Source of the DNA: Microbulbifer sediminum
GTDB taxonomy: Bacteria; Pseudomonadota; Gammaproteobacteria; Pseudomonadales; Cellvibrionaceae
Direction of reading: 5' to 3'
NCBI RefSeq assembly: GCF_021729035.1
Contig: NZ_JAJSAP010000002.1
Span: 434,001 to 498,000 of the forward strand
DNA length: 64,000 nucleotides
The number at the start of each line of letters is the position of its first letter. Within the stretch, counting starts at the first letter, position 1. The translations under genes and the position numbers were made by a program. Below the pieces are notes generated by a model. That model had not been told where the DNA came from and did not search any database. It saw nothing but the letters and a program-made list of their open reading frames with translations. This document shows positions 3,139-43,064 of this stretch, piece after piece.

Positions 3139-3149
3139 TGCCTGTATGA

Positions 3150-3185
3150 TTCGCCTGCAGGTCGCACCCGCGGCCTGCAGGCGAA
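3150..3185 (+). terminator. Inverted repeat after gcdH (possible terminator)
   Basis: A perfect 12-bp stem, TTCGCCTGCAGG paired with CCTGCAGGCGAA around a 12-nt loop, begins 12 nt after the gcdH stop. There is no T-run behind it, so it is either a weak or Rho-assisted terminator or an mRNA-stabilising 3' hairpin. Confidence 0.5.
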
Positions 3186-3207
3186 ACTTCAAGACAGGCC
3201 CTTTCCG

Positions 3208-3825
3208 ATGGAACACCTGCTGCACTGGTTCGATCTCATAGGCATCGTGGTATTTGCCTTTACCGGCGTCCTGGCCGCCGGCCACAAGCAGATGGACCTG
3301 TTCGGCGCCGTGGTACTCGCCTGTGTAACCGCTACCGGCGGCGGCACCACCCGCGATATGATTCTCAACATCCCGGTCTTCTGGCTACAGGCCAGCCATT
3401 ACCTGTGGCTGGCGGCGGGTACCGGCGTAATCAGCTTCTACCTCATCCGCTACCTGCAGGTGCCCATGCGGCTACTGAAGGTTGCCGATGCCATGGGCCT
3501 GGCTGTATTCGTGGTAATCGGCACCCAAAAAGGGCTCGACCTCGGCCACAGCCCTGCTATTGCCATCGTCATGGGCGTCATGACCGGCACCTTCGGTGGG
3601 CTGATCCGGGATATCCTGGCCGGCGACATTCCCCTCTTGCTACGCCGCGAGATCTATGCCACTGCAGCCCTGTCAGGGGCCGCCACGCTGGTTTTGCTTG
3701 ACGCGAGCGGTAAACTGCCCGGTGAGGCAGTAGTGGCCATCGCCGTGCTGGTGACCCTGGGTATCCGCCTGGCCGCCCTACGCTGGAACCTGAGCGCACC
3801 GATTGCGCGGTTTGGCAACCATTGA
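3208..3825 (+). CDS. TRIC/UPF0126-family trimeric intracellular cation channel homologue (YicG-like)
   Basis: An inner-membrane protein of 205 residues with about seven hydrophobic segments. It consists of two UPF0126 repeats. Each carries the family signature: GAVVLACVTATGGGTTRDMIL (first) and GVMTGTFGGLIRDILAGDIPLL (second). The Gly-rich kink and the conserved R-D pair are those of prokaryotic TRIC channels, which form trimers with a pore in each subunit and pass monovalent cations. The start ATG at 3208 has only a weak AGG upstream. It is probably monocistronic; the next gene begins 47 nt later from a TTG codon. The physiological role in bacteria is poorly known. Confidence 0.9.
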   Translation: MEHLLHWFDLIGIVVFAFTGVLAAGHKQMDLFGAVVLACVTATGGGTTRDMILNIPVFWLQASHYLWLAAGTGVISFYLIRYLQVPMRLLKVADAMGLAVFVVIGTQKGLDLGHSPAIAIVMGVMTGTFGGLIRDILAGDIPLLLRREIYATAALSGAATLVLLDASGKLPGEAVVAIAVLVTLGIRLAALRWNLSAPIARFGNH

Positions 3826-28985: not shown

Positions 28986-31505
28986 CTAGGCCAGCTCCCC
29001 CACCAGCCGTAACGGTCGCACCTGCAGGGCCTTCTCGATCTCCAGGCATTGCCCCAAAAGTCGTGATATGTGCCTGTGGTAATGCTCGTTCACTGTGGCG
29101 CTGACAGTCCTGCAGCGCAGTTCCATTTCCTGAAGGGTATCGATAAGCGCCTGTCGCTCCCGTGGCAAGTCCTCCCCGGCGGCCCTGTCAGCGCCCGCCA
29201 GCCGCTGTTCCAGGGCAGCCGACACCCCGATCGCGGAAAGGGTATCGCTGTTGTTCACCTGGTGCTGGATTACCTGCAGGCCACGCTGTGCGAGACCATA
29301 AAATTTCTGCAGGGTCTCGCGCTGCCCCGGCTCCAGGGAAAGCCGGTCGATTGCAAGCCCGAGGACCCGAGCCAGTTCATCGAGCCGGTCCAGGTGGGGT
29401 GCAAGGGTAGTGAAAGCCTGCGTCTCCCGCCGTGCCGAATCTGCCCAGGCGCGATCCTCGCTTTTCATTGAACCGATCGCGCGCTTCATGCGCAGTACGA
29501 ATACCTCCTGGATCTGCTGGTACTGCGCCTGCAAACCGTCCCGTTGCTGGCGCAGCTCCCTCTGGGTCGACTCGGCGGCACCCACCTCGGTATTGCCCAG
29601 ATGAAAATCAGCGGGCCGTATCTTCACGGAATGGCGCAGCAGCTCTACACCAAGCTCAACTGCGGGCGCCCTTACCGCGAGTTCATCCAGGCGGCCGGTA
29701 AGGTCGCGCAAATCGACCAGCCTGGTGCGCAACCAGTCGACGCACTCCTGCAAGCCCATCGCGGCCAGGGTTTCCTCCCCCGGCGTTTCCAGGGGCAGAA
29801 AGCGACGCGGCGGAACACGATTGAAGAACTCACCGATTATGCGCAGCGCCTGTTCCGCATCCTCGCTGGTGCAGAGCAGCTGCTGGTTGTCTACCGGGCG
29901 TGTATCGGCAGCGGCAATATCGGCGCTCACCTCGCTCGCCAGCCCCGGCAGGTCATCAATCAGGCGCTGCACCGAAAACTCTGCCTGGATCGCCGCCGCC
30001 AGCCCGAGTTGCTCCACTGCCGCAACCCGGTCATTGTCCACCGGGGCGGTGGGATCCCAGCAATCCGATGGCTGCGACATTGCCAGTTCCAGGTTAGACA
30101 GGGTCTCCCGGTCCAGGTTGCGCATTGTCCACTGGATGGCCCGCGGGTAATTCTCCAGTCGCTGGCCTGCGATAGCCGCCTCGCGGTTCACCTCGGCCAC
30201 CATCAGGTCCGCGTGCACCATACGGTGCCACCTCTCTGCAAATGGCGCGATCCCGTCACTGCCGATCAAGTGGGCCGCACAGCGATCCCCTTCGCGCTCC
30301 AGCATTCGCGCCGCCGGCCGCGCCACGATCTGGTGCATCGCCTCGAGTCGGTCCAGGATCGGGATCACTCCCCGCCCACAGAGAGCAAGCAGATTATGCA
30401 GCGGGCGTAAAAGCCCGCGGGCATGCCCCCCCGGCGCAATCACACTGCGATCGTTCTCCATCGCCCATTGCACCCACTGCAGTCGTCGTGGTGTTTCCAG
30501 GGCCAACCATGCCACGGTTGCCCGCAGGCGTCCCCGGTACATGCCACGCTGCCGTGCCACCAGCGCCAGCAGTTCGTTCCCCGTCAGGCAGTAGGCCGCC
30601 CCCAACCCCAGCTCCAGCGCCAGGCTCTGTCGGTACGCCTCTGAAATCCGTCCGGCCTCCACCCGGACAGCGCTACCAGCGGTAACGCTAACGGCAGGGG
30701 TGCCCGGCAGTCCGCTTTTGCCCGCCAAAACGTCCAACAGAAGGTACAACCCCTGGGCATCGCGCCGCTTGAGCGGACGGGATTTCGGCAGAGAGTCACG
30801 GGCCAGCCGTCGCGCGCCGAAAAAGGGCCACGCCACCAATGCGGCCACCAGCCCGCTCAGTGAAATTGACAAGCAGAGGCCCATCACCGAGCCGGCGCCC
30901 AGCTCCCCGGCCAGCGCCGCCCGGGCAAATTGCCAGATTGCACTCGCCACGCTGTAAAGACAGATCCCCAGCAACAAAGAGAACAGCGCGGGAACCAGTG
31001 CCGCCCCGGGCAGGGAAGCGGCAAGCGCACTGCGCGAGGAAATCGGGTCGGGGATCGTGGCATCGCCACCGTCGAACAGGGATTCCAGCTGCCGCTGCGC
31101 CCTGGAAGCGGGTGCGCCCTGCTCTCGCCGGGCCTTGTCCTCAGTCGTGGCATGCTCACGGGTGGGGCGGACGGCATCGCTGGTGACCTGCTGCGCCGGA
31201 TTCGATGATTGCATGCCACGGCGCCGCCTCCTGGCCTGCTCCAGCCGGGCCAGCAATGCACGATTGTCGTATTTTCCGGCCGGGAACACTTCCACCCGCA
31301 GCCCCATACGCTGCAGGCGCGAGCGGTATTCCAGCACCTGTTTTGACGAGAGCCGGTCCTTGATCACCCAGCCCTTCAGGAGCAGTGTGCGGGCTTTTGC
31401 CTCGGGAATGGAGAATGCCTTTGCCGCCGCCTGCAATACCTCACCCGGGGACTTGCCACGCAGGGTTTTCCCGGCAGATACAACTTGAAATAGCTCGGCA
31501 GGCAT
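28986..31505 (-). CDS. Large membrane protein resembling an inactivated M48 (Ste24-like) peptidase
   Basis: An 839-residue protein from ATG 31505 (GGAG 6 nt upstream; GTG 31523 also in frame). Residues about 5-75 form an N-terminal module (FQVVSAGKTLRGKSPGEVLQAAAKAF, ending LRVEVFP), of the kind found before several gammaproteobacterial membrane proteins. A basic linker follows, then two transmembrane segments (about 167-193 and 205-230). The next region, LLLDVLAGKSGLPGTPAVSV through YCLTGNELLALVARQRGMYRGRL, runs like the M48 core, but the zinc motif HExxH is RQRGM (318-322). The C-terminal 500 residues are helical with coiled-coil-like stretches. No other zinc site is obvious. It is likely non-enzymatic, perhaps a scaffold. 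Inference by eye. Confidence 0.65.
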   Translation of the reverse strand: MPAELFQVVSAGKTLRGKSPGEVLQAAAKAFSIPEAKARTLLLKGWVIKDRLSSKQVLEYRSRLQRMGLRVEVFPAGKYDNRALLARLEQARRRRRGMQSSNPAQQVTSDAVRPTREHATTEDKARREQGAPASRAQRQLESLFDGGDATIPDPISSRSALAASLPGAALVPALFSLLLGICLYSVASAIWQFARAALAGELGAGSVMGLCLSISLSGLVAALVAWPFFGARRLARDSLPKSRPLKRRDAQGLYLLLDVLAGKSGLPGTPAVSVTAGSAVRVEAGRISEAYRQSLALELGLGAAYCLTGNELLALVARQRGMYRGRLRATVAWLALETPRRLQWVQWAMENDRSVIAPGGHARGLLRPLHNLLALCGRGVIPILDRLEAMHQIVARPAARMLEREGDRCAAHLIGSDGIAPFAERWHRMVHADLMVAEVNREAAIAGQRLENYPRAIQWTMRNLDRETLSNLELAMSQPSDCWDPTAPVDNDRVAAVEQLGLAAAIQAEFSVQRLIDDLPGLASEVSADIAAADTRPVDNQQLLCTSEDAEQALRIIGEFFNRVPPRRFLPLETPGEETLAAMGLQECVDWLRTRLVDLRDLTGRLDELAVRAPAVELGVELLRHSVKIRPADFHLGNTEVGAAESTQRELRQQRDGLQAQYQQIQEVFVLRMKRAIGSMKSEDRAWADSARRETQAFTTLAPHLDRLDELARVLGLAIDRLSLEPGQRETLQKFYGLAQRGLQVIQHQVNNSDTLSAIGVSAALEQRLAGADRAAGEDLPRERQALIDTLQEMELRCRTVSATVNEHYHRHISRLLGQCLEIEKALQVRPLRLVGELA

Positions 31506-31714
31506 CGCGCGCTCCGGTGACACTCGTTCCAGTATTTTCCCGATGGGTCGGGCAGTGAAGCACGAAGACTAATTTATTATCCCCGAACAGTGTGGGGACT
31601 GGTTCTCACAGCCCCAGCCCCAAAAGGGTCGTTCCGGGGAAAAAGCGCGGTCCGACACGCACGGAATGATAACGGGATCTCAGTGCGGGTTGTGCATGCC
31701 ACGCAGATATCCCG

Positions 31715-32374
31715 TCAGCGGCAATACAGGCTGAGAACCTGCCCGGCAAGTTCGTCCAGTGACAACCCCTGCTTCTTGGGCCTGAACCAGTGGTAACTGT
31801 GGGCCAGGGAGCCCTGTAGCAGGCGCCGGGCCAGGGCCGGATCATCCATGCGCCCTGCCTCCGCAAGCACATCGCGCCACAGCCGCTCATAGCGCTCGCG
31901 CAGTTGCAGCACCTGCCGCTGGCTCTCAGGGCTGAGGCTCCGCCATTCCGACACCAGGATGGTAAAGCCAGGCACTGCGCGCCCGTGAATGGCTTCCAGC
32001 TCACAGAGGATGCATGCCCTGAGCCTGCCCCGGGGCGTACGCTCCTGCGCGACAGCAGCTTCCATGCGTGCCCGCGCGAAAATCGTTACCTCCCGCATCA
32101 CCTGGCACAGTATTGCCTCTTTGCTGCGAAAGTGGTGAAAGATACTACCGGAGAGGATCCCCACTTCCGCCGCGATATCCCGCACCGTGGTCCGTGCGAA
32201 GCCCTTTTCGACAAACAGGAGTGCCGCCGCATTCAGCAGGCGGCCGCGTGGCGATGCCGGGTCAGTCAATTCACCCTGCGCCACAAGCGCTTCCACAAGC
32301 GCGCTGGACCCCTGCCCCAATCCTGCGGATGTCACCGCATTTCCGCTGCCACCTGGCACTGACATCTCCCCCAT
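31715..32374 (-). CDS. TetR/AcrR-family transcriptional regulator
   Basis: About 219 residues. The helix-turn-helix is VEKGFARTTVRDIAAEVGILSGSIFHHFRSKEAIL (about 55-89). The C-terminal ligand domain ends in HSYHWFRPKKQGLSLDELAGQVLSLYC, a pattern shared by repressors of acyl-CoA catabolic operons. ATG 32374 and ATG 32365 are both possible; the second has GGGGGAG touching it. It is divergent from the SDR-carboxylase operon, with a palindromic site 15 bp upstream of its start, so it probably represses itself and the operon. The inducer is likely an acyl-CoA of the pathway (inference). Confidence 0.88.
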   Translation of the reverse strand: MGEMSVPGGSGNAVTSAGLGQGSSALVEALVAQGELTDPASPRGRLLNAAALLFVEKGFARTTVRDIAAEVGILSGSIFHHFRSKEAILCQVMREVTIFARARMEAAVAQERTPRGRLRACILCELEAIHGRAVPGFTILVSEWRSLSPESQRQVLQLRERYERLWRDVLAEAGRMDDPALARRLLQGSLAHSYHWFRPKKQGLSLDELAGQVLSLYCR

Positions 32375-32388: not shown

Positions 32389-32406
32389 ACCAAGCGCTTG
32401 CTTGGT
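32389..32406. promoter_or_regulatory. TetR-type operator in the tetR/SDR divergent promoter
   Basis: A perfect 7-bp inverted repeat with a 4-bp spacer, ACCAAGC-GCTT-GCTTGGT. The left half overlaps a second palindrome CAAGCGCTTG (32391-32400). It lies between the divergent tetR and SDR genes, where a TetR repressor site is expected. The same half-sites and spacing recur at 43043-43064. Confidence 0.75.
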
Positions 32407-32534
32407 AGCGTTGGTGATCATGCGCAATATACCCGCCCGGTGCAAGACGCCGCCAAAAAAGCGCGACCAGCCGGGCCAGGCTCACGACCAACAACCATAA
32501 CAACCGCAGGGTTCCAAGGCCGACAGGAGAACTT

Positions 32535-33428
32535 ATGCCCTACCAGAGCCAGTTGCGACCAGGGAGCTTTAGCAACCAGGTGCACATTGTCACAGGTGGC
32601 GGCAGCGGCATCGGTCGCTGCATTGCACATGAGCTTGCAAGCCTGGGGGCTCACGTGGTGCTGATCGGGCGCACCGCCGAAAAACTGCAGCGCGTGGCGG
32701 GAGAAATCGCTGACGACGGGGGCTCCTCCAGCTACCACCCGCTCGATATCCGCGAGGAAGCCGATGTCCGCGCAGCCGTAGCCAGCATCGTGGATGAGCA
32801 CCAACATATTCACGGCCTGGTCAATAATGCCGGTGGCCAGTTTCCCTCACAGCTCGAGGAGATCTCCGCGCGGGGCTTCGAAGCCGTGGTGCGCAGCAAT
32901 CTGGTAGGCGGTTTCCTGATGGCCCGGGAGGTGTACACCCGGTCGATGAAGAACAATGGCGGCGCAATAGTGAATATAACCGCCGACAATGCCGGCGGCA
33001 TGCCCCTGATGGGCCACTCCGGTGCCGCGCGCGCCGGAATGGACAACCTGACGGAAACCGCCGCAGTCGAGTGGGCGGCCAGTGGTGTGCGTGTAAACGC
33101 GGTCGCACCGGGATATATCCTCTCCAGCGGCTTCGATACCTACGACGCCGAGTTCCTGAGGCAGCTGCTCCCTGGGTTCCGGGACAGTATCCCGCTCTAT
33201 CGGCTGGGTGAGGAGGCCGAAATCAGCGCCGCGGTGTGCTTCCTGCTGTCCGACGCCGCGAGCTATCTCACTGGACAGACCCTCCGTATCGACGGCGGCT
33301 CCAGCCTGAAACATCACTCCCCGTTATGGCAGCCCGCGCCGGCCAGGAACCGCAAGCGTTTCGAGGGTTTTCATCGCGCCGAAAAGCCTGCGGTGGTCGC
33401 CGAGCTCGAGGCAGAGGGCAAGCTCTGA
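32535..33428 (+). CDS. SDR-family enoyl-CoA reductase-like protein (PECR/DECR type)
   Basis: A 297-residue short-chain dehydrogenase with the Rossmann motif VTGGGSGIGRCIA and LVNNAGG. The usual catalytic YxxxK is absent: the aligned residues are Ser162 and Arg166 in MGHSGAARAGMDNLT. This HSGAARAG motif is that of peroxisomal trans-2-enoyl-CoA reductase and relatives, which reduce C=C bonds of enoyl-CoAs with NADPH. The C-terminus (TLRIDGGSSLKHH, ending AELEAEGKL) also follows that type. It is the first gene of the operon; its stop overlaps the next start (TGATG). It may reduce an unsaturated acyl-CoA entering the pathway. Atu operons also hold an SDR (AtuB) at this position. Confidence 0.85.
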   Translation: MPYQSQLRPGSFSNQVHIVTGGGSGIGRCIAHELASLGAHVVLIGRTAEKLQRVAGEIADDGGSSSYHPLDIREEADVRAAVASIVDEHQHIHGLVNNAGGQFPSQLEEISARGFEAVVRSNLVGGFLMAREVYTRSMKNNGGAIVNITADNAGGMPLMGHSGAARAGMDNLTETAAVEWAASGVRVNAVAPGYILSSGFDTYDAEFLRQLLPGFRDSIPLYRLGEEAEISAAVCFLLSDAASYLTGQTLRIDGGSSLKHHSPLWQPAPARNRKRFEGFHRAEKPAVVAELEAEGKL

Positions 33429-35035
33429 TGCAACCATTCGACTCCCAGGCCGAGCCCGGCTCGACGGAATTTGCCGAAAACCGGGAGGCAATGCTGCAGG
33501 CCATCGCACGGTTCCGCGAGGCCGAACAACGCCCGGTGGATGTGGCAACAGAAAAGGCCGAGCGCTACCAGAAGCGCGGCTGGCTGTTGCCGCGAGAGAG
33601 GCTCAATCGCCTCCTCGATCCGGGCGCCCCCTTTCTGGAACTCTGCTCCCTGGCAGGTTATCGGCTGTATGACGACAACGATGGCAGCGGCGCCGGAGGC
33701 GGTGCGATCTGCGGCATCGGCACCATCAACGGCCGGCGCTGCATGGTGCGCGTGGACAACTATGCGGTGAAGGGGGGCACCATCTCGCCCGCAGGTATGG
33801 ACAAGGCGCTGCGCATGCAGCAAATCGCACTGGAAAACCGTCTGCCGGTGGTGACCCTGGCCCAGAGCGGAGGAGCCAACCTGATGTTCGCCAATGAAAC
33901 CTTCGCACCGGGCGGACGGGGATTTGCCAACCAGGCGCGCATGTCTGCCGCCGGTATACCCCAGGTCACGGTGGTACATGGCAGCGCAACCGCCGGTGGA
34001 GCCTACCAGCCGGGACTGTCCGACTATGTGGTAATGGTGCGCGGACAGGCCGGCATGTACCTGGCCGGCCCCCCGTTACTCAAGGCCGCTACAGGAGAGA
34101 TTGCCGACGAGCAGAGCCTGGGTGGAGCGGAGATGCATTGCCGGCAGTCCGGCAGTGGCGATTACCTGGCCGAGGACGACGCGGACGGCATTCGCATGGC
34201 CCGGGAGATCGTCGCCACGCTCCCCGCCCTCCCCGGGGGCATTAGCGAGGAAGCCTGGCTCCCGCCACGCTACCCGGAAGACGAACTGCTGGGGCTGATT
34301 CCCGCAGACAGCAGGAAACCCTACGACGTTCGCGAAGTGCTGGCCCGCATTGTCGACGACTCCGCGATTCTCGATTTCAAGCCCGGGTTCGACCGGCAGA
34401 CCGTATGTTGCCATGCGCGCATCGAAGGCCAGGTGGTCGGGGTGATCGGCAACAATGGGCCGATTACTCCTGCCGGTGCCAATAAGGCTGCACAGTTTAT
34501 CCAGCTGTGTGAGCAAGGCGGCACGCCATTGCTGTTCCTGCACAACACCACCGGCTTTATGGTCGGCACCGACGTGGAACGTGGCGGCATCATCAAGCAT
34601 GGGTCCAAGATGATCCAGGCGGTGGCGAATGCCAGCGTACCCAAAATCAGTATTGTCATCGGTGGATCCTATGGAGCGGGCAACTACGCTATGTGCGGCC
34701 GAGGATTCGACCCCCGTTTCATCTTTGCCTGGCCCAACTCCCGCACTGCGGTGATGGGCGCGGCGCAGGCGGGCAAGGTCCTGCGTATCGTCACCGAGCA
34801 GAAAATGCAGCGCGCGGGCACAGTGGACCAGGCCACACTCGACAAGCTGGAGCAGGACACCGCCGCCTTTATGGAAGCCGGCTCCGATGCTCTGTCCTGC
34901 AGTGCGAGGCTGTGGGACGACGGCATCATTGATCCGCGGGATACCCGTCGCCTGCTGGGCATGCTGCTGGAAATATGCCGGCATGCAGAACAGGCATCGC
35001 GACGGAAGAACACTTTTGGCGTGGCGAGGTTCTAG
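33428..35035 (+). CDS. Acyl-CoA carboxylase carboxyltransferase (beta) subunit, MCC/geranyl-CoA-carboxylase-like
   Basis: A 535-residue biotin-dependent carboxyltransferase, the length of MCC/GCC beta subunits. Marks: ERYQKRGWLLPRERLNRLLDPGAPFLELCSLAGYRLYDD, NQARMSAAGIPQVTVVHGSATAGGAYQPGLSDYVVMV, GPPLLKAATGEIADEQSLGGAEMHCRQSGSGDYLAEDD, LLFLHNTTGFMVGTDVERGGIIKHGSKMIQAV and GGSYGAGNYAMCGRGFDPRFIFAWPNSRTAVMG. The MCC-typical GGAFLP loop reads GGANLMF here, which changes the acyl pocket. ATG overlaps the SDR stop. It carboxylates a branched 2-enoyl-CoA with the alpha subunit encoded downstream. Substrate not assignable by eye: 3-methylcrotonyl-, geranyl- or another CoA. Confidence 0.9.
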   Translation: MQPFDSQAEPGSTEFAENREAMLQAIARFREAEQRPVDVATEKAERYQKRGWLLPRERLNRLLDPGAPFLELCSLAGYRLYDDNDGSGAGGGAICGIGTINGRRCMVRVDNYAVKGGTISPAGMDKALRMQQIALENRLPVVTLAQSGGANLMFANETFAPGGRGFANQARMSAAGIPQVTVVHGSATAGGAYQPGLSDYVVMVRGQAGMYLAGPPLLKAATGEIADEQSLGGAEMHCRQSGSGDYLAEDDADGIRMAREIVATLPALPGGISEEAWLPPRYPEDELLGLIPADSRKPYDVREVLARIVDDSAILDFKPGFDRQTVCCHARIEGQVVGVIGNNGPITPAGANKAAQFIQLCEQGGTPLLFLHNTTGFMVGTDVERGGIIKHGSKMIQAVANASVPKISIVIGGSYGAGNYAMCGRGFDPRFIFAWPNSRTAVMGAAQAGKVLRIVTEQKMQRAGTVDQATLDKLEQDTAAFMEAGSDALSCSARLWDDGIIDPRDTRRLLGMLLEICRHAEQASRRKNTFGVARF

Positions 35036-35081
35036 CTCGCGCCAGGCTGGTAACCAGCGTCGAGGACCACGGAAAAACGCC

Positions 35082-36293
35082 ATGATACTTACTGACGAGC
35101 ATCACGAACTGCAGCGTACCGTGCGCAATTTTGTCGAGCGCGAGATCAACCCCCATGTCGCCAAGTGGGAAGAGTCCGGCGAGTTTCCCACCCGGGAACT
35201 GTTCGGCAGGCTGGGCGAACTGGGTCTGCTGGGCATCAGCAAGCCCGTTGAGTACGGCGGCCTGGGCCTGGACTTCAGTTACGAGGCGGTGTTTCTCGAG
35301 GAACTGGGCGGGGCACACTGTGGGGGGGTGCCACTGGCTATCGCCGTGCAGACAGCCATGGCAACACCGGCCCTGGCCAATTTTGGCAGCGATTCGCTCA
35401 GGCAGCAGTTCCTGCTGCCAGCGATCCGGGGACAGATGGTCGGGGCCATCGCCGTATCCGAACCCGGTGCCGGCTCGGATGTCGCAGGGGTCAAGACCAC
35501 CGCTACCCGTGATGGCGACGGCTATGTCGTCAATGGCAGCAAGATGTGGATTACCAATGCGCCCCGTGCCGACTTTTTCTGCACGCTCGTCAATACCGGC
35601 GAGGGCAAACCCCACCGGAATAAATCCTTGCTGGTGATTCCCGCCGATGCGCCCGGCGTTCGTGTCGGCGACCGACTGAAAAAACTCGGTATGCGCTCCT
35701 CGGAAACTGCCCCGGTATTTTTCGATGATGTGCGGGTTCCACAAAGCTACCGTATCGGCAACGAAGGGGATGGCTTCCTGCTACAGATGCTGCAGTTCCA
35801 GGAGGAGCGCCTGGCAGGAGCCCTGCTGACCATTCGCGGGCTTGAGAACTGTGTCTTTTCGACCATCGACTACACTCGCGAGCGCCAGGTGTTCGGCGGT
35901 GCGCTGCTGGATAACCAGACCGTGCATTTCAACCTGGCGGAGATGCAGACGGAGGTGGAATGCCTGCGTGCCCTGACCTGGCGAGCCACCGAGGCCTACG
36001 TGGCCGGTGAGGACGTCACCACCCTGGCCTCTATGGCCAAGCTGAAATCCGGGCGCCTGGCGCGGTCCATTCCCGACCAGTGCCTGCAGTTCTGGGGTGG
36101 CATGGGCTATATGGAAGAGACGCCCATCAATCGCGCCTACCGGGACTCGCGCCTGACCGCCATCGGCGGCGGTGCTGACGAAGTGATGCTCGGCATCATC
36201 TGCAAGTTGATGGGTATTTTGCCACGGGCCAGGAAAACGGTCTCGCCCGATATCAATACTGATCAAAAGGGGGAGGCCCAACGTGAAAATTGA
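35082..36293 (+). CDS. Acyl-CoA dehydrogenase, operon copy 1 (AtuD/IVD/LCAD-like)
   Basis: A 403-residue FAD enzyme starting at ATG 35082 with GGAAAA upstream. Marks: [69 protein letters not shown] and LKKLGMRSSETAPVFFDDVRVP. The usual catalytic Glu (YEGT) is replaced by AIGGGADEVM. The alternative catalytic Glu of isovaleryl- and long-chain-type enzymes is present in QFQEERLAGALL. This points to branched acyl-CoA substrates, as for AtuD and LiuA. It overlaps the next gene by 11 nt. Confidence 0.9.
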   Translation: MILTDEHHELQRTVRNFVEREINPHVAKWEESGEFPTRELFGRLGELGLLGISKPVEYGGLGLDFSYEAVFLEELGGAHCGGVPLAIAVQTAMATPALANFGSDSLRQQFLLPAIRGQMVGAIAVSEPGAGSDVAGVKTTATRDGDGYVVNGSKMWITNAPRADFFCTLVNTGEGKPHRNKSLLVIPADAPGVRVGDRLKKLGMRSSETAPVFFDDVRVPQSYRIGNEGDGFLLQMLQFQEERLAGALLTIRGLENCVFSTIDYTRERQVFGGALLDNQTVHFNLAEMQTEVECLRALTWRATEAYVAGEDVTTLASMAKLKSGRLARSIPDQCLQFWGGMGYMEETPINRAYRDSRLTAIGGGADEVMLGIICKLMGILPRARKTVSPDINTDQKGEAQREN

Positions 36294-37110
36294 CGAATCA
36301 GCAGCAGGTTCACTGCTGGCCCGCCGCAACGGCCACACCCTTCATCTCACTCTGAACCGCGTGGACCAGCGCAATGCCCTCAGCCTGCTGATGGTGGACG
36401 AACTGCTGTCCCAGCTGGAGCGGGCTGAAGGGGATCCGACTATCCGCGTCCTGATGATGCGCGGCGCCGGGGGGAATTTTTCCGCGGGTGCCGATGTCGG
36501 CGACATGCTCACCGCCCAGGAAAAAGTCGAGGCAGGCGAGACCGATGCATTCGCCACGATGAACCGGCGTTTCGGGACCCTGTTGCAGAAATTTGACCGT
36601 ACGCGCCTGGTCACTGTCGCGGCCCTGGAGGGCGCCATCATGGGCGGCGGGCTGGGACTGGCCTGCATTGCCGATATCGCCATCGCCAGCGCAACAGCCC
36701 GCTTCTCACTACCGGAGACACGGCTGGGCCTGGTGCCGGCACAGGTGGCACCCTTTATTACCGCGCGTATCGGGCCGTCGCAGACGCGCAGGCTGGCGCT
36801 GGCCGGTGCCAGTATCAATGCGGACGAAGCCCTGCGCATCGGGTTGGTGCATGAAGTCGCAGCGGACACGGGGGCACTGGAAACCGCGCTGGCAAACCAG
36901 CTCGCCGCTATCGGCCGGTGTGCACCCGGCGCCCTCGCCACAACCAAGCGACTGTTGCTGGAGAGCAGTCCGGTCCCGGTGGCCGGCGATCGCGACCGGT
37001 TGCTGGACCGGGCCGCCCGCCAGTTTTCCGAGGCAGTCCAGGGTAACGAGGGGCGCGAAGGTACCCGCGCATTTATCGAAAAGCGACCGGCGGAGTGGCA
37101 AAGCCAATGA
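36283..37110 (+). CDS. Enoyl-CoA hydratase (methylglutaconyl-/isohexenylglutaconyl-CoA hydratase-like)
   Basis: A 275-residue crotonase-fold protein starting at GTG 36283 inside the end of the dehydrogenase gene. Oxyanion-hole motifs are GGNFSAGADVGDM and ALEGAIMGGGLGLACIADIAIA. Of the two crotonase glutamates, the first position is Gly125 and the second, Glu145, is kept in FSLPETRLGLVPAQVAPFI. This ETRLGLVPAxVAPFI pattern is that of LiuC/AtuE, which hydrate the carboxylated enoyl-CoA made by the carboxylase. It overlaps the biotin carboxylase start by 4 nt (ATGA). Confidence 0.88.
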   Translation: MKIDESAAGSLLARRNGHTLHLTLNRVDQRNALSLLMVDELLSQLERAEGDPTIRVLMMRGAGGNFSAGADVGDMLTAQEKVEAGETDAFATMNRRFGTLLQKFDRTRLVTVAALEGAIMGGGLGLACIADIAIASATARFSLPETRLGLVPAQVAPFITARIGPSQTRRLALAGASINADEALRIGLVHEVAADTGALETALANQLAAIGRCAPGALATTKRLLLESSPVPVAGDRDRLLDRAARQFSEAVQGNEGREGTRAFIEKRPAEWQSQ

Positions 37111-39161
37111 CTGACGCCAAAGAACGTTTACCGGGTCGCTCCCGCCCTACACTGCTGGTTGCCAATCGCGGCGAAATCGCGGCACGGATTATCCGCAGCG
37201 CGCGGAGCGAAGGCTACCGGACGGTGGCCATCTACAGTGAGCCGGACCACGACGCCCTGCACACCCGCCTCGCTGATGTCGCGGTCGCCATTGGTGGCCG
37301 CAGTCCCCGGGAATCCTACCTGGACATCGACAAGATACTCGCTGCCGCCCGACGGTGCGGCGCCACCGCCGTGCACCCCGGTTACGGCTTCCTCTCCGAA
37401 AATCCCGCGTTCGCCCGCGCCTGCGAGGAGAGCAGCCTGGTATTCGTCGGCCCCACCGCTGCGTCAATCGAGGCCATGGCCAACAAGCGGCGGGCCAAGG
37501 CCCTGGTGTCGGAGGCCGGGGTCCCGTGTATTCCCGGGTATACCCCGGAGGGCGCGGGGACCGATGACGACACACTGGTACGTGCGGCCGACGAAATCGG
37601 CTACCCAGTGATGATTAAAGCTGCGGACGGCGGCGGTGGCCGCGGTATGCGGCTGGTGCAATCCGCCGATGAACTGGCAGCACAGTTGCTATCGGCCCGC
37701 AGCGAGGCCCGCGGTGCCTTTGGCAGTGACGAGATTATCCTGGAGAAGGCACTGGTCAATGCACGCCATGTAGAAGTCCAGATTTTTGCCGACAGCCACG
37801 GCAACGTCATTCACCTTGGGGAAAGAGACTGCTCCATCCAGCGCCGGCACCAGAAAATTATCGAGGAGTGCCCCTCCCCCGCCGTGGACGCCGATCTGCG
37901 CCGGCGTATGGGTGCCGCCGCAATCGCCGCGGCACGGGCCTGCGACTACCGGGGTGCTGGCACAGTGGAATTCCTCCTGCAGGCAAATGGGGAATTCTAC
38001 TTCCTGGAAATGAATACCCGACTGCAGGTGGAACATCCGGTTACTGAGATGGTGACCGGCCTTGACCTGGTGGCCTGGCAACTCGCCGTTTCGCGGGGCG
38101 AACGATTGCCCCTGAGCCAGGATGAAGTACGGTTGTGTGGCCATGCGATCGAGGTTCGGCTGTATGCCGAGGACCCGGACAACCAGTTCCTGCCCCAAAC
38201 TGGTCAGATCCTCCACTGGCAGGCACCCGCTGGCGACGGCATCCGCTGCGACCACGCCATCACCCACAGGGGAACGGTCAGCCCGTTTTACGACCCCATG
38301 CTGGGCAAACTGATCAGCAGCGGACGGGACCGTGAGCAGGCCCGGCTGCGCCTGCAGCAGGCCCTGTCCGGGCTCGAGTTTATCGGCCCCAAAAACAACG
38401 CGTATTTTCTCAGTCGACTGGTCGCCGACCCGGTATTTGCCGCTGGCGACGCCACAACCGGGTTTCTGGACAGCGAGGGCCTGTACCTGTTGCACTCGGC
38501 CACACAGGAATCACAGCCTGAGCTACAACACGCTGCCATCGCCACTGTCCTGATGCACAACTGTGGCCTGGCCCCTGCAGACCTCCGCAGCGACCGGGCC
38601 GACTGGCGTAACAGCAACCACAGCACACCGTTTTATTACCGGCTGCAAAGGGACAACATAGTCTTCGAGTGCCAACTGCGCCCGCTACCGCACCGAACCT
38701 ATCTGGTGGAGAGTACAGGCGAGGCATTCCAGCTTGCGCTGATACATGCAGGAAAGGACCGGGCGGTGCTATCTGTTGATGGCGTCGAACAGGCGGTCAT
38801 TTTCCATCACCGGGCACCGACGCTGTTCACACTACTGGAAGGGCGACAAATGGGATGGCGGGACTGCACTCACGCCCCGGCCAGCACCGGCAACGACCCG
38901 GGTGACGGTGTACTCCGCTCCCCCATGGATGGCACGGTTACGGCCCTCTGCGTGAAGCCCGGGCAACCAGTCCGGAGCGGCGAGACCCTGGCAGTGGTCG
39001 AAGCAATGAAGATGGAACACCCGCTCAAGGCGGACTGCGACGGCACTGTCGGCGAACTGGGCGCTGCCGCCGGGGATCAGGTGCGCGGCGGCCAGTTACT
39101 GGTCCGGATCGAGCCCGCCGTAACACCCTCCAGTTCCGGGGTTTCCACCGCTACCCCCTGA
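37107..39161 (+). CDS. Acyl-CoA carboxylase biotin carboxylase/carrier (alpha) subunit, MCC/GCC-like
   Basis: A 684-residue protein: biotin carboxylase (N-terminal LLVANRGEIAARIIRSARSEGY, ATP-grasp with MIKAADGGGGRGMRLV, GERDCSIQRRHQKIIEECPSP, FYFLEMNTRLQVEHPVTEMVTGLDLV), then a BT-type linker, then a C-terminal biotinyl domain with VEAMKMEHPL (biotinylated Lys635). The ATG overlaps the hydratase stop; GTG 37095 is an alternative. This domain order and length are those of MCC and geranyl-CoA carboxylase alpha subunits. It forms the carboxylase with the beta subunit from 33428, needing ATP, bicarbonate and biotin ligase (not in the window). Confidence 0.93.
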   Translation: MTDAKERLPGRSRPTLLVANRGEIAARIIRSARSEGYRTVAIYSEPDHDALHTRLADVAVAIGGRSPRESYLDIDKILAAARRCGATAVHPGYGFLSENPAFARACEESSLVFVGPTAASIEAMANKRRAKALVSEAGVPCIPGYTPEGAGTDDDTLVRAADEIGYPVMIKAADGGGGRGMRLVQSADELAAQLLSARSEARGAFGSDEIILEKALVNARHVEVQIFADSHGNVIHLGERDCSIQRRHQKIIEECPSPAVDADLRRRMGAAAIAAARACDYRGAGTVEFLLQANGEFYFLEMNTRLQVEHPVTEMVTGLDLVAWQLAVSRGERLPLSQDEVRLCGHAIEVRLYAEDPDNQFLPQTGQILHWQAPAGDGIRCDHAITHRGTVSPFYDPMLGKLISSGRDREQARLRLQQALSGLEFIGPKNNAYFLSRLVADPVFAAGDATTGFLDSEGLYLLHSATQESQPELQHAAIATVLMHNCGLAPADLRSDRADWRNSNHSTPFYYRLQRDNIVFECQLRPLPHRTYLVESTGEAFQLALIHAGKDRAVLSVDGVEQAVIFHHRAPTLFTLLEGRQMGWRDCTHAPASTGNDPGDGVLRSPMDGTVTALCVKPGQPVRSGETLAVVEAMKMEHPLKADCDGTVGELGAAAGDQVRGGQLLVRIEPAVTPSSSGVSTATP

Positions 39162-39210
39162 GCCCACTAAAGCGGTTACCCGCACTGCAGGCAACAGAGA
39201 GGACCGCCGC

Positions 39211-40374
39211 GTGTTCGATATCGATTCCACCCGACTCCACAGCCCCTTCCGGACTGGCGAGCACCAGCAGTGGCGCGCTCAGCTGCGCCGCTTTGTAGAC
39301 CGGGAGATCGCCCCCTTCATCGAGCAGTGGGATGAAGATGGCAGCCTGCCGGCTGACCTGTGGCCCAAGGCCGCAGGTATCGGCCTCCTGGCCCTGGGTT
39401 ATCCGGAGCCCTACGGCGGCATCCCTGGGGATATTTTCCACACCATCGTTGCCGCGGAGGAACTCGCCCGATGCGGTGCCGGGGGACTCTACGCCAGCTT
39501 GATGGTGCACGGCATTGCCCTGCCACCCCTGGTCCACTACGGCGACGATGCCCTGAAAGAGGCAGTTATCCCCCCCGTACTGCGCGGCGAACGAAATATT
39601 TCCCTCGCAATCACGGAACCAGGTGCCGGCTCCGATGTGGCCAACCTCCAGTGCCGCGCAGCCCCCGATGGCGATGCCTATGTTGTTCGCGGGGAGAAAA
39701 CATTTATCACCGGCGGCATGCGGGCAAACTGGTTCACCGCCGCTGTCCGTACCGGTGGCGAAGGCTTTGGCGGGATTTCGCTGCTGTTGATTCCCGCCGA
39801 TGCGCCCGGGGTGGAGCGCCGGGCACTATCGCGCAAACAGGGCTGGTGGTGTTCCGATACAGCCAGCATTTTCTTTGATGGGGTCCGGGTTCCCCGTGAA
39901 AACCTGATCGGTGAAGAAAACGCGGGCTTCCTGCCGATCGTGCACAACTTTAATGGCGAGCGACTTGGCATCGCCGCCTCCTGCGTGGAGTACAGCCGCG
40001 TCTGCCTGCAGGAGGCGATCGAATGGGCACAGCAGCGCCGGACATTCGGCAAGCGGCTCGCCGATCACCAGGTGATCCGCCACAAGTTTGCCCAGATGCT
40101 GCAACGGATAAACGCCACTGCGGCCTACCTGGAACTATGCGCCGCAGCGGAACAGCGCGGGGAACTCGGAGTTGCCGATGTCTCCCTGTTGAAAGTACAG
40201 GCGACCGAGGTTATGGAGTTCTGTGCGCGGGAAGCCATGCAGGTGATGGGCGGTGCCGGTTATATGAGGGGCAGCCGCACCGAGCGGATTTACCGCGAAG
40301 TAAGGGTCAATGCAATAGGCGGTGGTTCCGAGGAAATCCTCCGCGACCTGGCGGCGCGGCAGATGGGCATCTGA
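39211..40374 (+). CDS. Acyl-CoA dehydrogenase, operon copy 2
   Basis: A 387-residue FAD enzyme starting at GTG 39211 with GAGAGGACCGCC upstream. Marks: LLALGYPEPYGGIPGD, LAITEPGAGSDVANLQCRA, KTFITGGMRANWFTAAVRTGGEG and QGWWCSDTASIFFDGVRVP. Like copy 1 it has AIGGGSEEIL instead of YEGT and a candidate catalytic Glu in NFNGERLGIAAS. Only moderately similar to copy 1, so a second oxidation in the same pathway is likely. It is the last gene of the rightward operon, 49 nt behind the biotin carboxylase gene, and converges with the symporter gene. Confidence 0.88.
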   Translation: MFDIDSTRLHSPFRTGEHQQWRAQLRRFVDREIAPFIEQWDEDGSLPADLWPKAAGIGLLALGYPEPYGGIPGDIFHTIVAAEELARCGAGGLYASLMVHGIALPPLVHYGDDALKEAVIPPVLRGERNISLAITEPGAGSDVANLQCRAAPDGDAYVVRGEKTFITGGMRANWFTAAVRTGGEGFGGISLLLIPADAPGVERRALSRKQGWWCSDTASIFFDGVRVPRENLIGEENAGFLPIVHNFNGERLGIAASCVEYSRVCLQEAIEWAQQRRTFGKRLADHQVIRHKFAQMLQRINATAAYLELCAAAEQRGELGVADVSLLKVQATEVMEFCAREAMQVMGGAGYMRGSRTERIYREVRVNAIGGGSEEILRDLAARQMGI

Positions 40375-40399
40375 CGGTCAGCGGACAAGCGAAAGACAG

Positions 40400-41878
40400 T
40401 TACCAGCGATCTGCGTCCCACACATCATGCTCCACGCCCGGTATATTGTGCTTGCGCGCATCAAATATCGGCTGGTCAGTACCGCGCGCACGCTGCTCTT
40501 CATAGTCCGCCAGCACCCGGAATGCGACACCGGAAAGCAACAGCATCGCCAACAGGTTGGCGGAGGCCATAAAGCCCATGGACATATCGGCCATGTTCCA
40601 CAACAGCGCAAAGTTATCGGAGCTGCCACTCGCCGCGACCCAGGCACCAAAGAGAATGAACAGGATATAGAGTGCCCGGTAGCAGAGAATGGAGGTGCGT
40701 GTGTGCCAGAGGTAGAAAATATTTGTTTCCGCGTAGTAGTAATTGGCAATGATGGAGGTAAAGGCGAAGAAGATCAGTGCAATGGCGATAAAGCCACCAC
40801 CCCAGCTGCCCACCTCGCTCGCCAGCGCGTCCTGAGTCAGGGTGACGCCCTCGATGCTGCCCAGCACATGCACATCCGCCAGCAGGATAATGGCCGCCGT
40901 GGCCGTGCAGATCAATATGGTGTCCAGGAACACTGACGCCATCTGCACAAATCCCTGCACCGCCGGGTGCTTCACATCCGCAGCTGCACCCACATTCGGT
41001 GACGAGCCCATGCCTGCCTCGTTGGAGAACAGGCCACGCTTGATCCCATTGGCCACCACTGCGCCAAAGGCCCCGGCCCCGGCCTCCTGGAGACCAAAGG
41101 CATTGCGGGCAACCAGGCCAAGCACTGACGGCAGTTCAGCCAGGTTCATGGCAATCACCACGATCGCAACAGCCAGGTAGGCCAGCGCCATCACCGGCAC
41201 GACCAGTCCGGCAAAGCGGCCGATGGTATGAATGCCCCCGAATACAATCAGTGCCGCTACCAGGGCCACGATCACACCCACCAGCAGCGCGTTTATCTCG
41301 AACGCGGCACTGATGGCCGAAGCCATTGCATTCGCCTGCACCGCATTGAAGAAAAACCCGAAACTGATCACCAGGAAAATGGAGAAGACCACAGCCAACC
41401 ATTTCCACTGGCGCCCCAGGCCCTTCTCGATGTAGTAGGCCGGACCACCGCGAAAGGTGCCGTGCTCTTCCCCACGCTCTTTGTAGGTCTGCGCCAGGGT
41501 GTTCTCGACAAAGCTGGTGGCCATACCCACCAGTCCCACCAGCCACATCCACAGGACGGAGCCCGGGCCACCGGCGGTGATCGCCACCGCCACCCCGGCA
41601 ATGTTGCCGGTGCCCACCCGGGCGGCGGCACTGGTGGCGAAAGCCTCGAATGAGGAAACCGAGTCATAGTGTTCACGGCGCAGGCTGCAGCGCATGACAT
41701 GCAGCATGTGCCCGAATAAGCGAAACTGGACAAAGCGACTGCGGATCGTGAAGTAGAGTCCCGCCGGCAACAGCGCCGCAACCAGGATGCCCAGCCACCA
41801 GATCCCGCCGATCCCACCCCAGGCGAGGGAGTTGCCCCAGCCGATCACTGTCGACAGCGCATCCAGGAATGATTGCAT
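40400..41878 (-). CDS. Sodium:alanine/glycine symporter (AGCS family)
   Basis: A 492-residue inner-membrane transporter with about ten or more helices. AGCS signatures: RVGTGNIAGVAVAITAGGPGSVLWMWLVGLVGMATSFVENTLAQ, FRGGPAYYIEKGLG, and NGIKRGLFSNEAGMGSSPNVGAAADVKHPAVQGFVQMASVFLDTILICTATA. The final FDARKHNIPGVEHDVWDADRW is a normal cytosolic tail. It moves alanine, glycine or related compounds with Na+. It lies downstream of the BKACE gene on the same strand, 192 bp apart, so co-transcription is possible. Its upstream region shows no TetR-type inverted repeat. Confidence 0.93.
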   Translation of the reverse strand: MQSFLDALSTVIGWGNSLAWGGIGGIWWLGILVAALLPAGLYFTIRSRFVQFRLFGHMLHVMRCSLRREHYDSVSSFEAFATSAAARVGTGNIAGVAVAITAGGPGSVLWMWLVGLVGMATSFVENTLAQTYKERGEEHGTFRGGPAYYIEKGLGRQWKWLAVVFSIFLVISFGFFFNAVQANAMASAISAAFEINALLVGVIVALVAALIVFGGIHTIGRFAGLVVPVMALAYLAVAIVVIAMNLAELPSVLGLVARNAFGLQEAGAGAFGAVVANGIKRGLFSNEAGMGSSPNVGAAADVKHPAVQGFVQMASVFLDTILICTATAAIILLADVHVLGSIEGVTLTQDALASEVGSWGGGFIAIALIFFAFTSIIANYYYAETNIFYLWHTRTSILCYRALYILFILFGAWVAASGSSDNFALLWNMADMSMGFMASANLLAMLLLSGVAFRVLADYEEQRARGTDQPIFDARKHNIPGVEHDVWDADRW

Positions 41879-42070
41879 CGGTCGCTCCCCTGACTGCCTC
41901 TACAGGAGCCGGGCACGATGACGGCCCGCTGATAGTGGCGGAAAAAACTTCACCTGAACTTAAGACTAGCTGAGCGACAGGTGAGCGGGACAACGGGAAC
42001 AGACTGGCAGGTCCGGCCCCGGGTCAAGGGTGGGCGAAATACTCCCGGTCGAAGCAACGATAATCCGCGC

Positions 42071-42925
42071 CTACAGGAATATCTCCCGTGCGCGCGGCGG
42101 TGATACCACCTTGCGTCCCGCGTCCTCGGCCACCTTTACCAGCGCCTCGACCAGCTGGCCGTTGCCACTGGTGCGGGAACCGTCCGGGAGATAAAAGGTG
42201 TCTTCGACACCGCTCCGCAGGTGACCGCCCAACTCGGCCGTCTTGCGGTGCAACGCCCAGATTTCCTGGCGCCCGATCACTGTGGACTGCCACAGGGCGC
42301 CGTCATGCATGTAGCGCGGCAGCAGTTGCAACAGGTCCGGGTCAGCGGGCATGCCCGAGGCAACCCCCATCACCAGGTTGTAATTGGGCCGTTCCACCAT
42401 GCCCACATCCCGGTACATGCCGACTGAACGCACAATGCCGACATCGAAGCACTCGAATTCCGGCCGGGTTCCGGTCTCGCGACAGACTTCCAGTAATTCC
42501 CCCACCTTTTCTACCGTGTTCTCAAACAGTATTGGCGGCCAGGCCCAGGTGCCATTCGAGCGGGCTTTCAGGTAATTCAGGCTGCCGGCATTGCAGGCGG
42601 CGATTTCAGGCTGCCCGGCACGAATACAATCCAGTGCGCCCTGCTGGTCGCGGCCGACAGTGCCAGTGCTGAAGTTGAGTATAACGCCGGGACAGGCATG
42701 GCGTATCGCTTCGGCGATGGCCACCGCAACCTTCGGGTCCCAGCTGGGCAGGTGCCCCGTGCCCGGCTCCTGGGAGCGAAAGTGCACGTGCATTACCGAG
42801 GCTCCCGCATCGAAAGCCTCCCGGGCCGACGCGGCCATCTCCTCCGGTGTTACCGGCACCGGGTGCTGCCGGGGGTCGGTGAGTACACCGGTCAGCGCGC
42901 AGGTAATGACGACTTCATCAGACAT
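42071..42925 (-). CDS. Beta-keto acid cleavage enzyme (BKACE, DUF849)
   Basis: A 284-residue zinc TIM-barrel enzyme. ATG 42925 has AGGAG 8 nt upstream. Marks: VITCALTGVLTDPRQHPVPVTPEEMAASAREAFDAGASVMHVHFRS with the zinc ligands HVH, FSTGTVGRDQQGALDCI, ECFDVGIV and LGGHLRSGVEDTFYL. The family condenses a 3-keto acid with acetyl-CoA to give acetoacetate and a new acyl-CoA; members act on 3-keto-5-aminohexanoate, dehydrocarnitine and others. A TetR-type operator like that in front of tetR sits about 118 bp upstream. Substrate not readable from sequence. Confidence 0.92.
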   Translation of the reverse strand: MSDEVVITCALTGVLTDPRQHPVPVTPEEMAASAREAFDAGASVMHVHFRSQEPGTGHLPSWDPKVAVAIAEAIRHACPGVILNFSTGTVGRDQQGALDCIRAGQPEIAACNAGSLNYLKARSNGTWAWPPILFENTVEKVGELLEVCRETGTRPEFECFDVGIVRSVGMYRDVGMVERPNYNLVMGVASGMPADPDLLQLLPRYMHDGALWQSTVIGRQEIWALHRKTAELGGHLRSGVEDTFYLPDGSRTSGNGQLVEALVKVAEDAGRKVVSPPRAREIFL

Positions 42926-43042
42926 GGGCAGGACTCCTGAATTATCTTTATGGGAACCCGGGGCCCCGAATGGCACATACCGCCATCTGCGAAGGGCCTG
43001 ACGCCATGCCGCGGGCCGGGATCCAGTGAGGTCCAAAACAAG

Positions 43043-43064
43043 CAACCAAGCAAACGCTTGGTTG
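43043..43064. promoter_or_regulatory. Second TetR-type operator, upstream of BKACE and the S9 peptidase gene
   Basis: A perfect 9-bp inverted repeat with a 4-bp spacer, CAACCAAGC-AAAC-GCTTGGTTG. Its core ACCAAGC-N4-GCTTGGT is the same as at 32389-32406. It lies near the middle of the 263-bp divergent region between BKACE (leftward) and the S9 peptidase (rightward) and could control either or both. Confidence 0.75.

Follow-up and report, generated by a model that had tools for sequence, protein, structure and literature searches.

The window examined here is a 64,000-nucleotide stretch of a Microbulbifer sediminum contig. It contains a gene for a TetR-type repressor, a divergent operon for acyl-CoA metabolism, and a separate gene of the BKACE family. 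An inverted repeat with the same arms lies ahead of each transcription unit. The features are:

31715..32365, minus strand: putative atuR-type TetR repressor, 216 aa, ATG chosen in this analysis (TetR_N and TetR_C_24)
32389..32406, no strand: predicted operator 1, ACCAAGC-GCTT-GCTTGGT, within the divergent atuR/SDR region
32535..33428, plus strand: SDR, atuB-like, the operon's first gene in this genome (Pfam adh_short_C2)
33428..35035, plus strand: putative beta subunit of geranyl-CoA carboxylase (atuC), start ATG 33428 (PDB match, diagnostic residues)
35082..36293, plus strand: acyl-CoA dehydrogenase 1, atuD-like, start codon inferred (Pfam typing, order-wide clusters)
36283..37110, plus strand: enoyl-CoA hydratase, atuE-like (Pfam typing, order-wide clusters)
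37095..39161, plus strand: biotin carboxylase/BCCP, the carboxylase alpha subunit, atuF-like (Pfam typing, order-wide clusters)
39211..40374, plus strand: acyl-CoA dehydrogenase 2 (Pfam typing, gene order in relatives)
42071..42925, minus strand: BKACE, 284 aa, proposed as the distal regulon member (Pfam BKACE, 4e-77)
43043..43064, no strand: predicted operator 2, 18-bp core at 43045-43062, ACCAAGC-AAAC-GCTTGGT, upstream of BKACE

Operator 1 precedes the atuR start (ATG 32365, minus strand) by 23 bp and the SDR ATG (32535) by 128 bp. Operator 2 precedes the BKACE ATG (42925, minus strand) by 119 bp and the ATG of an S9 peptidase gene (43189) by 126 bp. The first-pass annotation had placed ACCAAGC-N4-GCTTGGT at both positions, with identical half-sites and spacing, different spacers and 9-bp arms in the second copy. 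A check of the sequence agreed with this description: the spacers are GCTT and AAAC, and the arms of operator 2 are CAACCAAGC/GCTTGGTTG. Neither site yielded a sigma-70-like promoter. The available sections of PMC9973270 give two AtuR elements of 13 bp, AGCAAGCGCTTGG and CCAAGCGCTTGCT, both of which occur within ACCAAGCGCTTGCTTGGT or within its complement. Operator 1 contains the second of these exactly, while operator 2 keeps the arms and, with its AAAC spacer, does not contain the exact published 13-mer.

Throughout the 3.85 Mb genome, the exact motif occurs only as operators 1 and 2; a scattered occurrence, which would have counted against the regulon, is not seen. There were no matches with one mismatch and seven with two, compared to four matches at up to two mismatches for a control pattern (the motif backward). 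Six of the seven two-mismatch matches fall inside mechanically called ORFs of at least 100 aa; the same rule also places operator 1 inside an ORF because the atuR frame is open upstream of its ATG as far as a TTG. The base composition of the window predicts 0.016 exact matches per genome and a probability of approximately 1e-4 for two or more. When up to three mismatches were allowed, the window held five matches against 3.2 expected. This is not significant, as 20 of 100 shuffles reach five, and thus only the exact matches carry weight.

The genes that follow operator 1 on the plus strand resemble those of a terpene-degrading atu operon, with a TetR-family repressor divergent from them. The best PDB match of the carboxylase beta subunit is geranyl-CoA carboxylase beta (5ikl_B, 790 bits). 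The corresponding score for 3-methylcrotonyl-CoA carboxylase (3u9r) is 489 bits, and on this comparison the identity of a leucine (liu) operon was rejected. In the accessible part of PMC4673880, geranyl-CoA carboxylases are distinguished from 3-methylcrotonyl-CoA carboxylases by a Gly instead of a Phe in the beta pocket and by the lack of a three-residue insertion before it. Read from the alignment, the M. sediminum subunit carries the Gly and lacks the insertion. Judged from sequence, the operon most likely supplies the dehydrogenase, carboxylase and hydratase of a branch for geranyl-CoA, or for a related isoprenoid acyl-CoA that could be the true substrate here. The second acyl-CoA dehydrogenase possibly acts on the acyl-CoA that arises after cleavage.

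The cluster may be compared with those under AtuR in Pseudomonas aeruginosa and P. citronellolis and with RdmA/dmg of P. nitroreducens. A divergent TetR repressor and the operator core CCAAGCGCTTGCT are shared, and the SDR, carboxylase beta, acyl-CoA dehydrogenase, hydratase and carboxylase alpha genes follow one another as in most of the order-wide clusters mapped. A homologue of the SDR (55-61%) lies between AtuA and CT in most of those clusters, and the identity of acyl-CoA dehydrogenase 1 across order-wide clusters is 59-68%. AtuR had been named in the first-pass annotation merely as an example of such a regulator, and both the operator match and the cluster type indicate that it was the right family. 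There are also differences. The Pseudomonas promoter has two AtuR elements according to the available text, whereas one exact site is found at the promoter here. Neither a second SDR nor an acyl-CoA ligase (atuG/atuH) was found among the Pfam-typed genes between 31715 and 45162. The cluster lacks atuA and is instead accompanied by a second transcription unit, BKACE, with its own operator.

BKACE carries the Pfam domain and the H.H.R and G..R.G.E motifs of the BKACE/DUF849 family, to which Kce (3-keto-5-aminohexanoate cleavage enzyme) belongs. Both motifs are retained in all 28 BKACE rows compared and are presumably the metal-binding and catalytic residues. The protein is only distantly related to the solved members (best match 115 bits) and its scores fall far short of the NCBIfam cut-offs for the four named enzymes that it matched. 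In a tree of 28 chosen rows, 14 copies with an exact operator and three with a one-mismatch operator form a single AtuR-linked clade (91/92), while five orthologue copies that lack the operator and come from beyond the family are placed elsewhere in the tree. A class-wide search of 147 genomes added one further relative, 51% identical, which was included in the tree. From the accessible parts of two papers, BKACE substrates are a beta-keto acid and acetyl-CoA (PMC11961710), and one BKACE group accepts hydrophobic substrates (PMC4922564).

Within Microbulbifer, the TetR repressor is present in 29 of 48 genomes and the same 29 have BKACE and the exact motif; the other 19 have none of the three. 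All 55 exact sites in the genus are upstream of one of the two genes, 29 at atuR (23-242 bp from the matched gene end) and 26 at BKACE (59-173 bp). Loci were returned for comparison for 30 of 43 TetR matches and 30 of 40 BKACE matches, and an exact operator is upstream in all 30 of the TetR loci. The 29 genus BKACE loci have an exact site in 26 cases, a one-mismatch site in two (G101, G103) and none in one (G096, which has both atuR and BKACE). The sequences that flank the operator are little conserved at BKACE and well conserved at atuR. In nine of the 26 genomes with both sites, the atuR and BKACE loci are unlinked, being separated by over 41 kb or located on different contigs, and the motif stays at BKACE.

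The association extends beyond the genus. In the family sample, the TetR gene is present in all 40 genomes with BKACE, and nine genomes from two other genera of family f1 share the order atuR, operator, BKACE, SDR and carboxylase genes. Among other families, an exact operator is found at BKACE in G216 (where BKACE is unlinked), G464 (where it is the first gene), G406 and G289, and a one-mismatch operator in G424 and G457. The pattern has exceptions. G008 and G115 have the TetR gene and an exact site with no BKACE match, G170 has BKACE with no site within 1.5 kb, and in f34, where no AtuR-type TetR was found, BKACE resides in a similar carboxylase cluster without the operator. TetR homologues of approximately 40% identity from Rhodocyclaceae, Accumulibacter and Dechloromonas (L046-L052) are not beside carboxylase genes in the stretches examined. 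The exact motif also occurs in five of 101 TetR-less family genomes, twice inside ORFs and three times in gaps between called ORFs; no homologue of a window gene (E <=1e-15) was found within the 11 kb fetched around these sites. From these comparisons of operator identity, co-occurrence, gene order and the operator at BKACE, the earlier proposal of one regulon spanning the carboxylase operon and BKACE gains support, which includes the unlinked BKACE genes that keep the motif and the two genera with the operator before BKACE and the carboxylase genes. Conservation of the motif upstream of orthologous genes, on which the proposal had been made to depend, is seen at both atuR and BKACE of relatives.

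No match to AtuA (PF07287) was found in the M. sediminum genome, and the cluster does not begin with atuA as a canonical atu cluster would. Order-wide, 98 TetR places were identified: 80 of these loci were examined, four in f1 were dealt with in the family sample, and 14 were left out as second copies, distant f36 rows or a partial G209 row. AtuA is present in 72 of the 80 loci. In most of the clusters mapped it lies directly behind the operator, the place that BKACE takes in some relatives; the two proteins belong to unrelated families. For the order sample, genomes were counted as AtuR-positive at E <=1.1e-36 (82 of 93 matching genomes), BKACE orthologues at 59% identity or more (14 of 25 matching genomes) and sites as upstream within 1.6 kb. 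BKACE is present in five of five AtuR genomes without an AtuA-family gene, three of which are Microbulbifer and so not independent, and in four of 77 with one; Fisher values for this contrast are therefore too strong. BKACE thus appears often to take the place of atuA, which is a new point. Three f28 genomes (G170, G289, G406) have AtuA in the atu cluster together with BKACE, and the replacement is therefore not universal. PF07287 genes also occur in G096 and G118; those of G101, G103 and G117, the three whose context was checked, were rejected as atu-type AtuA, since their identity to AtuA of L255 is 34-43% and their gene contexts differ. The PF07287 match in G039 is weak and split.

Several other explanations of the two sites may be considered. 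It is very improbable that the two palindromes arose by chance or by copying of DNA and have no regulator in common. The lack of enrichment over shuffles at up to three mismatches and the exact matches in TetR-less genomes are in keeping with such an origin, and with flanks as well conserved as those at atuR, conservation there alone proves little. However, the low number of exact matches expected, the complete co-occurrence in 48 genus genomes, the exact sites at 26 of 29 BKACE genes amid little conserved flanks, and the retention of the site at unlinked BKACE genes all argue otherwise. A stem-loop of a terminator or attenuator at operator 2 is just as hard to credit. While a scan of the minus strand marks 43064-43043, followed by a T-rich tail, as terminator-like, the same arms recur at atuR promoters and no conserved T-run follows the palindrome at the BKACE sites of relatives, on which ground the terminator reading was rejected. 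It is also unlikely, if a little less so, that operator 2 mainly regulates the S9 peptidase gene. The operator is about equally far from both starts, S9 is the divergent neighbor of BKACE in 28 of 29 genus genomes, and the two are 194-420 bp apart in all 28 genomes with both, even where BKACE is unlinked from atuR. Yet S9 is present in 47 of 48 genus genomes, and in other genera the gene opposite BKACE across the operator is an acetoacetate-CoA ligase (G216) or an acyl-CoA dehydrogenase (G464), with no S9 match adjoining BKACE in G038, G039, G406 or G289. The suggestion that the S9 gene possibly belongs to the regulon found no support as regards a dedicated member, as the gene occurs in all 19 genus genomes without the repressor, BKACE and exact motif. 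A weak S9 match (27%) was seen in G039 approximately 6 kb from BKACE.

A stronger competitor, though still the less probable one, accepts that AtuR controls BKACE, assigns the enzyme a different beta-keto acid, derived for instance from a longer isoprenoid or from a branched fatty acid, and denies that it replaces AtuA. The coexistence of AtuA and BKACE in f28 favors it, as does the role in DSF degradation that the available sections of PMC9973270 give to the AtuR homologue RdmA and the atu-like cluster of P. nitroreducens, and the BKACE substrate cannot be read from sequence. In contrast, BKACE is first behind the operator, in the place of atuA, in G464 and the nine genomes from two f1 genera, and it accompanies AtuR in every genome of the order sample that lacks an AtuA-family gene.

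The preferred reading, with a probability of about 0.8, is that these genes form an AtuR regulon comprising the atu operon and the distant BKACE, with a role in terpene catabolism. Most likely, the AtuR-type protein represses both units by binding two inverted repeats with identical arms, one in the divergent promoter region of its own gene and the other before BKACE, at a distance of approximately 10.7 kb. Its release by a terpene-catabolic intermediate would then induce the two units together. BKACE would occupy the place held by atuA in published Pseudomonas-type clusters. An HMG-CoA lyase encoded elsewhere in the genome (all 48 genus genomes have a match above cut-off) may cleave 3-hydroxy-3-isohexenylglutaryl-CoA to acetyl-CoA and free 7-methyl-3-oxo-6-octenoate. 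BKACE would then convert the latter and acetyl-CoA to 5-methyl-4-hexenoyl-CoA and acetoacetate without ATP, and beta-oxidation from 5-methyl-4-hexenoyl-CoA onward would lead to 3-methylcrotonyl-CoA. The odds of this exact BKACE reaction are about even. They are improved by G216, where an acetoacetate-CoA ligase gene (829 bits against a cut-off of 521) lies across the operator from BKACE, a neighbor that fits BKACE since acetoacetate is a product of the proposed reaction. M. sediminum also has an acetoacetate-CoA ligase, on another contig.

In the citronellol/geraniol pathway, the step after hydration is unsettled; in the accessible parts of the literature, two papers give the lyase reaction to AtuA and another gives it to LiuE. 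Among the open-licence papers searched, none mentions both the atu pathway and BKACE. BKACE offers a concrete proposal for that step and for the role of AtuA because a family of known chemistry is found in the place of AtuA under the same repressor. The regulon also hints at what one clade of BKACE enzymes may do. Whether this gammaproteobacterial branch catabolizes terpenes by means of HMG-CoA lyase and an AtuR-controlled BKACE, as a non-orthologous replacement of AtuA, is finely balanced. If so, the poorly understood AtuA would be placed at the same step in Pseudomonas.

The palindrome reported in the first-pass annotation, ACCAAGC-N4-GCTTGGT, is present at both of the positions claimed for it. 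The features concerned are:

31715-32365, minus strand: TetR family repressor gene (atuR)
32389-32406: site 1, the predicted operator in the divergent atuR/SDR region
42071-42925, minus strand: BKACE gene
43045-43062: site 2, the predicted operator upstream of BKACE, with arms that extend to 9 bp (43043-43064)

A search of the 3,854,156 bases of the genome returned these two exact matches only, with 0.016 expected per genome at this base composition, and no match with one mismatch; the motif is not scattered at random. Seven matches with two mismatches were found, six of them inside mechanically called ORFs, while a backward control (the reversed pattern) matched four times at two mismatches or fewer. 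The ORF rule is crude: site 1 was also scored as lying within an ORF since the repressor frame is open upstream of its ATG.

Past the divergent region, the operon encodes an SDR, a carboxyltransferase, an acyl-CoA dehydrogenase, an enoyl-CoA hydratase, a biotin carboxylase/BCCP and a second acyl-CoA dehydrogenase; the distal gene of the proposed regulon is BKACE. The carboxyltransferase scores 790 bits against the geranyl-CoA carboxylase β subunit (5ikl_B) versus 489 bits against 3-methylcrotonyl-CoA carboxylase. In the available text of PMC4673880, geranyl-CoA-type enzymes are distinguished by Gly instead of Phe in the pocket and by the absence of a three-residue insertion. The window protein shares both features, with the pocket position assigned by reading the alignment, and is a predicted geranyl-CoA-type enzyme.

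According to the accessible part of PMC9973270, the two 13-bp elements bound by Pseudomonas AtuR are AGCAAGCGCTTGG and CCAAGCGCTTGCT. ACCAAGCGCTTGCTTGGT or its complement includes each of them, and site 2 has the same arms as ACCAAGCGCTTGCTTGGT with a different spacer. Among 80 TetR loci fetched from the order outside the family, the 1.6 kb upstream of the repressor contained an exact site in 72, and an exact or one-mismatch site in 77; of the remaining three, one repressor sits at the edge of its contig and two are distantly related homologues from family f36. AtuA was encoded in 72/80 of these loci and a carboxyltransferase in 71/80. Therefore, the window repressor is AtuR-type and the operon is an atu (acyclic terpene utilization) operon.

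Adjoining atuR is an 845-aa ORF (28986-31523, minus strand) with no Pfam or NCBIfam match; five further Microbulbifer loci (L039-L042, L195) have homologues (37-63%) of it beside atuR. In Paraglaciecola arctica (L045:9756-10734), the exact site near a 49% AtuR homologue lies on the far side of that gene and precedes an acyl-CoA dehydrogenase gene, and no carboxylase gene match was found within the 20.5 kb examined. A Dechloromonas MAG has an exact site (L049:1469-1486) 30 bp upstream of an FMN/NAD oxidoreductase ORF (1517-3550), followed by an AtuR-like TetR (~41%). Sites with one or two mismatches lie at a similar distance (~2.1 kb) from TetR in loci L046, L050, L051 and L052; no such site was found near TetR in L047 and L048.

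The repressor, BKACE and the exact motif all occur in the same 29 of 48 Microbulbifer genomes and are all absent from the other 19. Each of the 55 exact sites in the genus lies upstream of either atuR (29 sites, 23-242 bp from the matched gene end) or BKACE (26 sites, 59-173 bp). Three BKACE genes are without an exact site, with one-mismatch sites in genomes G101 and G103 and none in G096. The surrounding bases are well conserved at atuR and little conserved at BKACE; since this comparison was built from exact sites only, the unbiased BKACE figure is 26/29. When two exact sites were present, the distance between them was 7.5-11.4 kb in 17/26 genomes; in the other 9/26 it exceeded 41 kb or the sites were on separate contigs. 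Linkage does not account for the motif at both genes. These sequence comparisons support the claim that a single TetR regulon probably joins the carboxylase operon to the distant BKACE gene.

Nine genomes from two other genera (G117-G121, G126-G129) carry BKACE at the head of the operon, with the operator region separating atuR from the BKACE-SDR-carboxylase genes; the five genomes of the first genus have an additional one-mismatch site beside the exact site, and in G119 the contig breaks off inside the carboxylase gene. Across 144 family genomes, the exact motif occurred in 42/43 with the TetR gene versus 5/101 without it, and the backward control in 2/144. BKACE never occurred without the TetR gene (40/40 genomes), and three TetR genomes lack BKACE (G008, G113, G115).

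Among 390 order genomes, BKACE orthologues (59% identity or more) were found in 14, of which 10 lie outside the family with 11 copies. Four of these copies have an exact operator (G216, G464, G406, G289) and two a one-mismatch site (G424, G457); the other five (G170, three f34 genomes and a second G424 copy) have no operator within 1.5 kb, nor was one found at any of 11 paralogues of ~30% identity. A tree of 28 chosen sequences groups the 14 exact-operator copies, the three one-mismatch copies and G096 in a single clade (support 91/92, narrowly missing the program's threshold of 95/80), with the five operator-less copies placed elsewhere. The BKACE genes of two f34 genomes and the second BKACE copy of G424 lie in carboxylase gene clusters that lack this operator. 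An SDR-carboxyltransferase-acyl-CoA dehydrogenase-biotin carboxylase-BKACE cluster with no AtuR operator (L373 and L374, from G176 and G267) possibly represents the same chemistry under a different regulator.

The S9 peptidase gene, also suggested as a possible member, is best regarded as a neighbor of BKACE. Wherever a genus genome has both genes (28 genomes), they are 194-420 bp apart, so the operator region is common to the two and may influence the S9 promoter. However, S9 is found in 47/48 genus genomes, including all 19 that lack the regulon, and other genes face the BKACE operator in G216 and G464.

In most clusters across the order, atuA immediately follows the operator, and no AtuA family (PF07287) match was found in the window genome. 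Among AtuR-positive order genomes, BKACE was present in 5/5 without a PF07287 match versus 4/77 with one (Fisher 5e-6, which ignores relatedness, three of the five being Microbulbifer). The other two belong to other families: in G464, BKACE directly follows the operator, and in G216 it is unlinked and has an operator of its own. Three genomes (G170, G289, G406) have AtuA in the atu cluster as well as a BKACE gene, which counts against strict replacement. PF07287 matches occurred in 6/40 BKACE-bearing family genomes (G039, G096, G101, G103, G117, G118). Those of G101, G103 and G117 were rejected as atu-type AtuA, being 34-43% relatives in other gene contexts, and that of G039 is weak and split. 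The only PF07287-matching genomes among the 48 Microbulbifer, G096, G101 and G103, are those with a missing or one-mismatch BKACE operator.

By HMG-CoA lyase chemistry, 3-hydroxy-3-isohexenylglutaryl-CoA should yield acetyl-CoA and the free acid 7-methyl-3-oxo-6-octenoate. As far as the available portions of three papers extend, they disagree on the lyase, assigning the step to AtuA (PMC4847356), to AtuA as speculation (PMC9973270) or to LiuE (PMC4097962), and the products are written as acetate and a CoA ester. BKACE converts a β-keto acid and acetyl-CoA to an acyl-CoA and acetoacetate (PMC11961710, in part), and one group of the family accepts hydrophobic substrates (PMC4922564, in part). 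The window genome has one HMG-CoA lyase match above the curated cut-off (contig C12), and at least one is present in 48/48 genus genomes. Catalytic motifs, whose residues presumably bind metal, are retained in the AtuR-linked BKACE clade of the tree. Taken together, these points suggest that HMG-CoA lyase would perform the cleavage and act together with BKACE as an alternative to AtuA. In G216 (L377:10068-12201), BKACE and a divergent acetoacetate-CoA ligase gene (TIGR01217, 829 bits, cut-off 521) flank an exact AtuR-type operator, a single case that fits the proposal since acetoacetate is the BKACE product; the window genome encodes such a ligase, above the same cut-off, on contig C11 rather than on the window's contig. 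Among the 24 papers listed by a search of the open-licence literature, none combined atu-pathway and BKACE terms. The regulon of atuR, the operon and BKACE is much firmer than the proposed substitution of AtuA by HMG-CoA lyase and BKACE.
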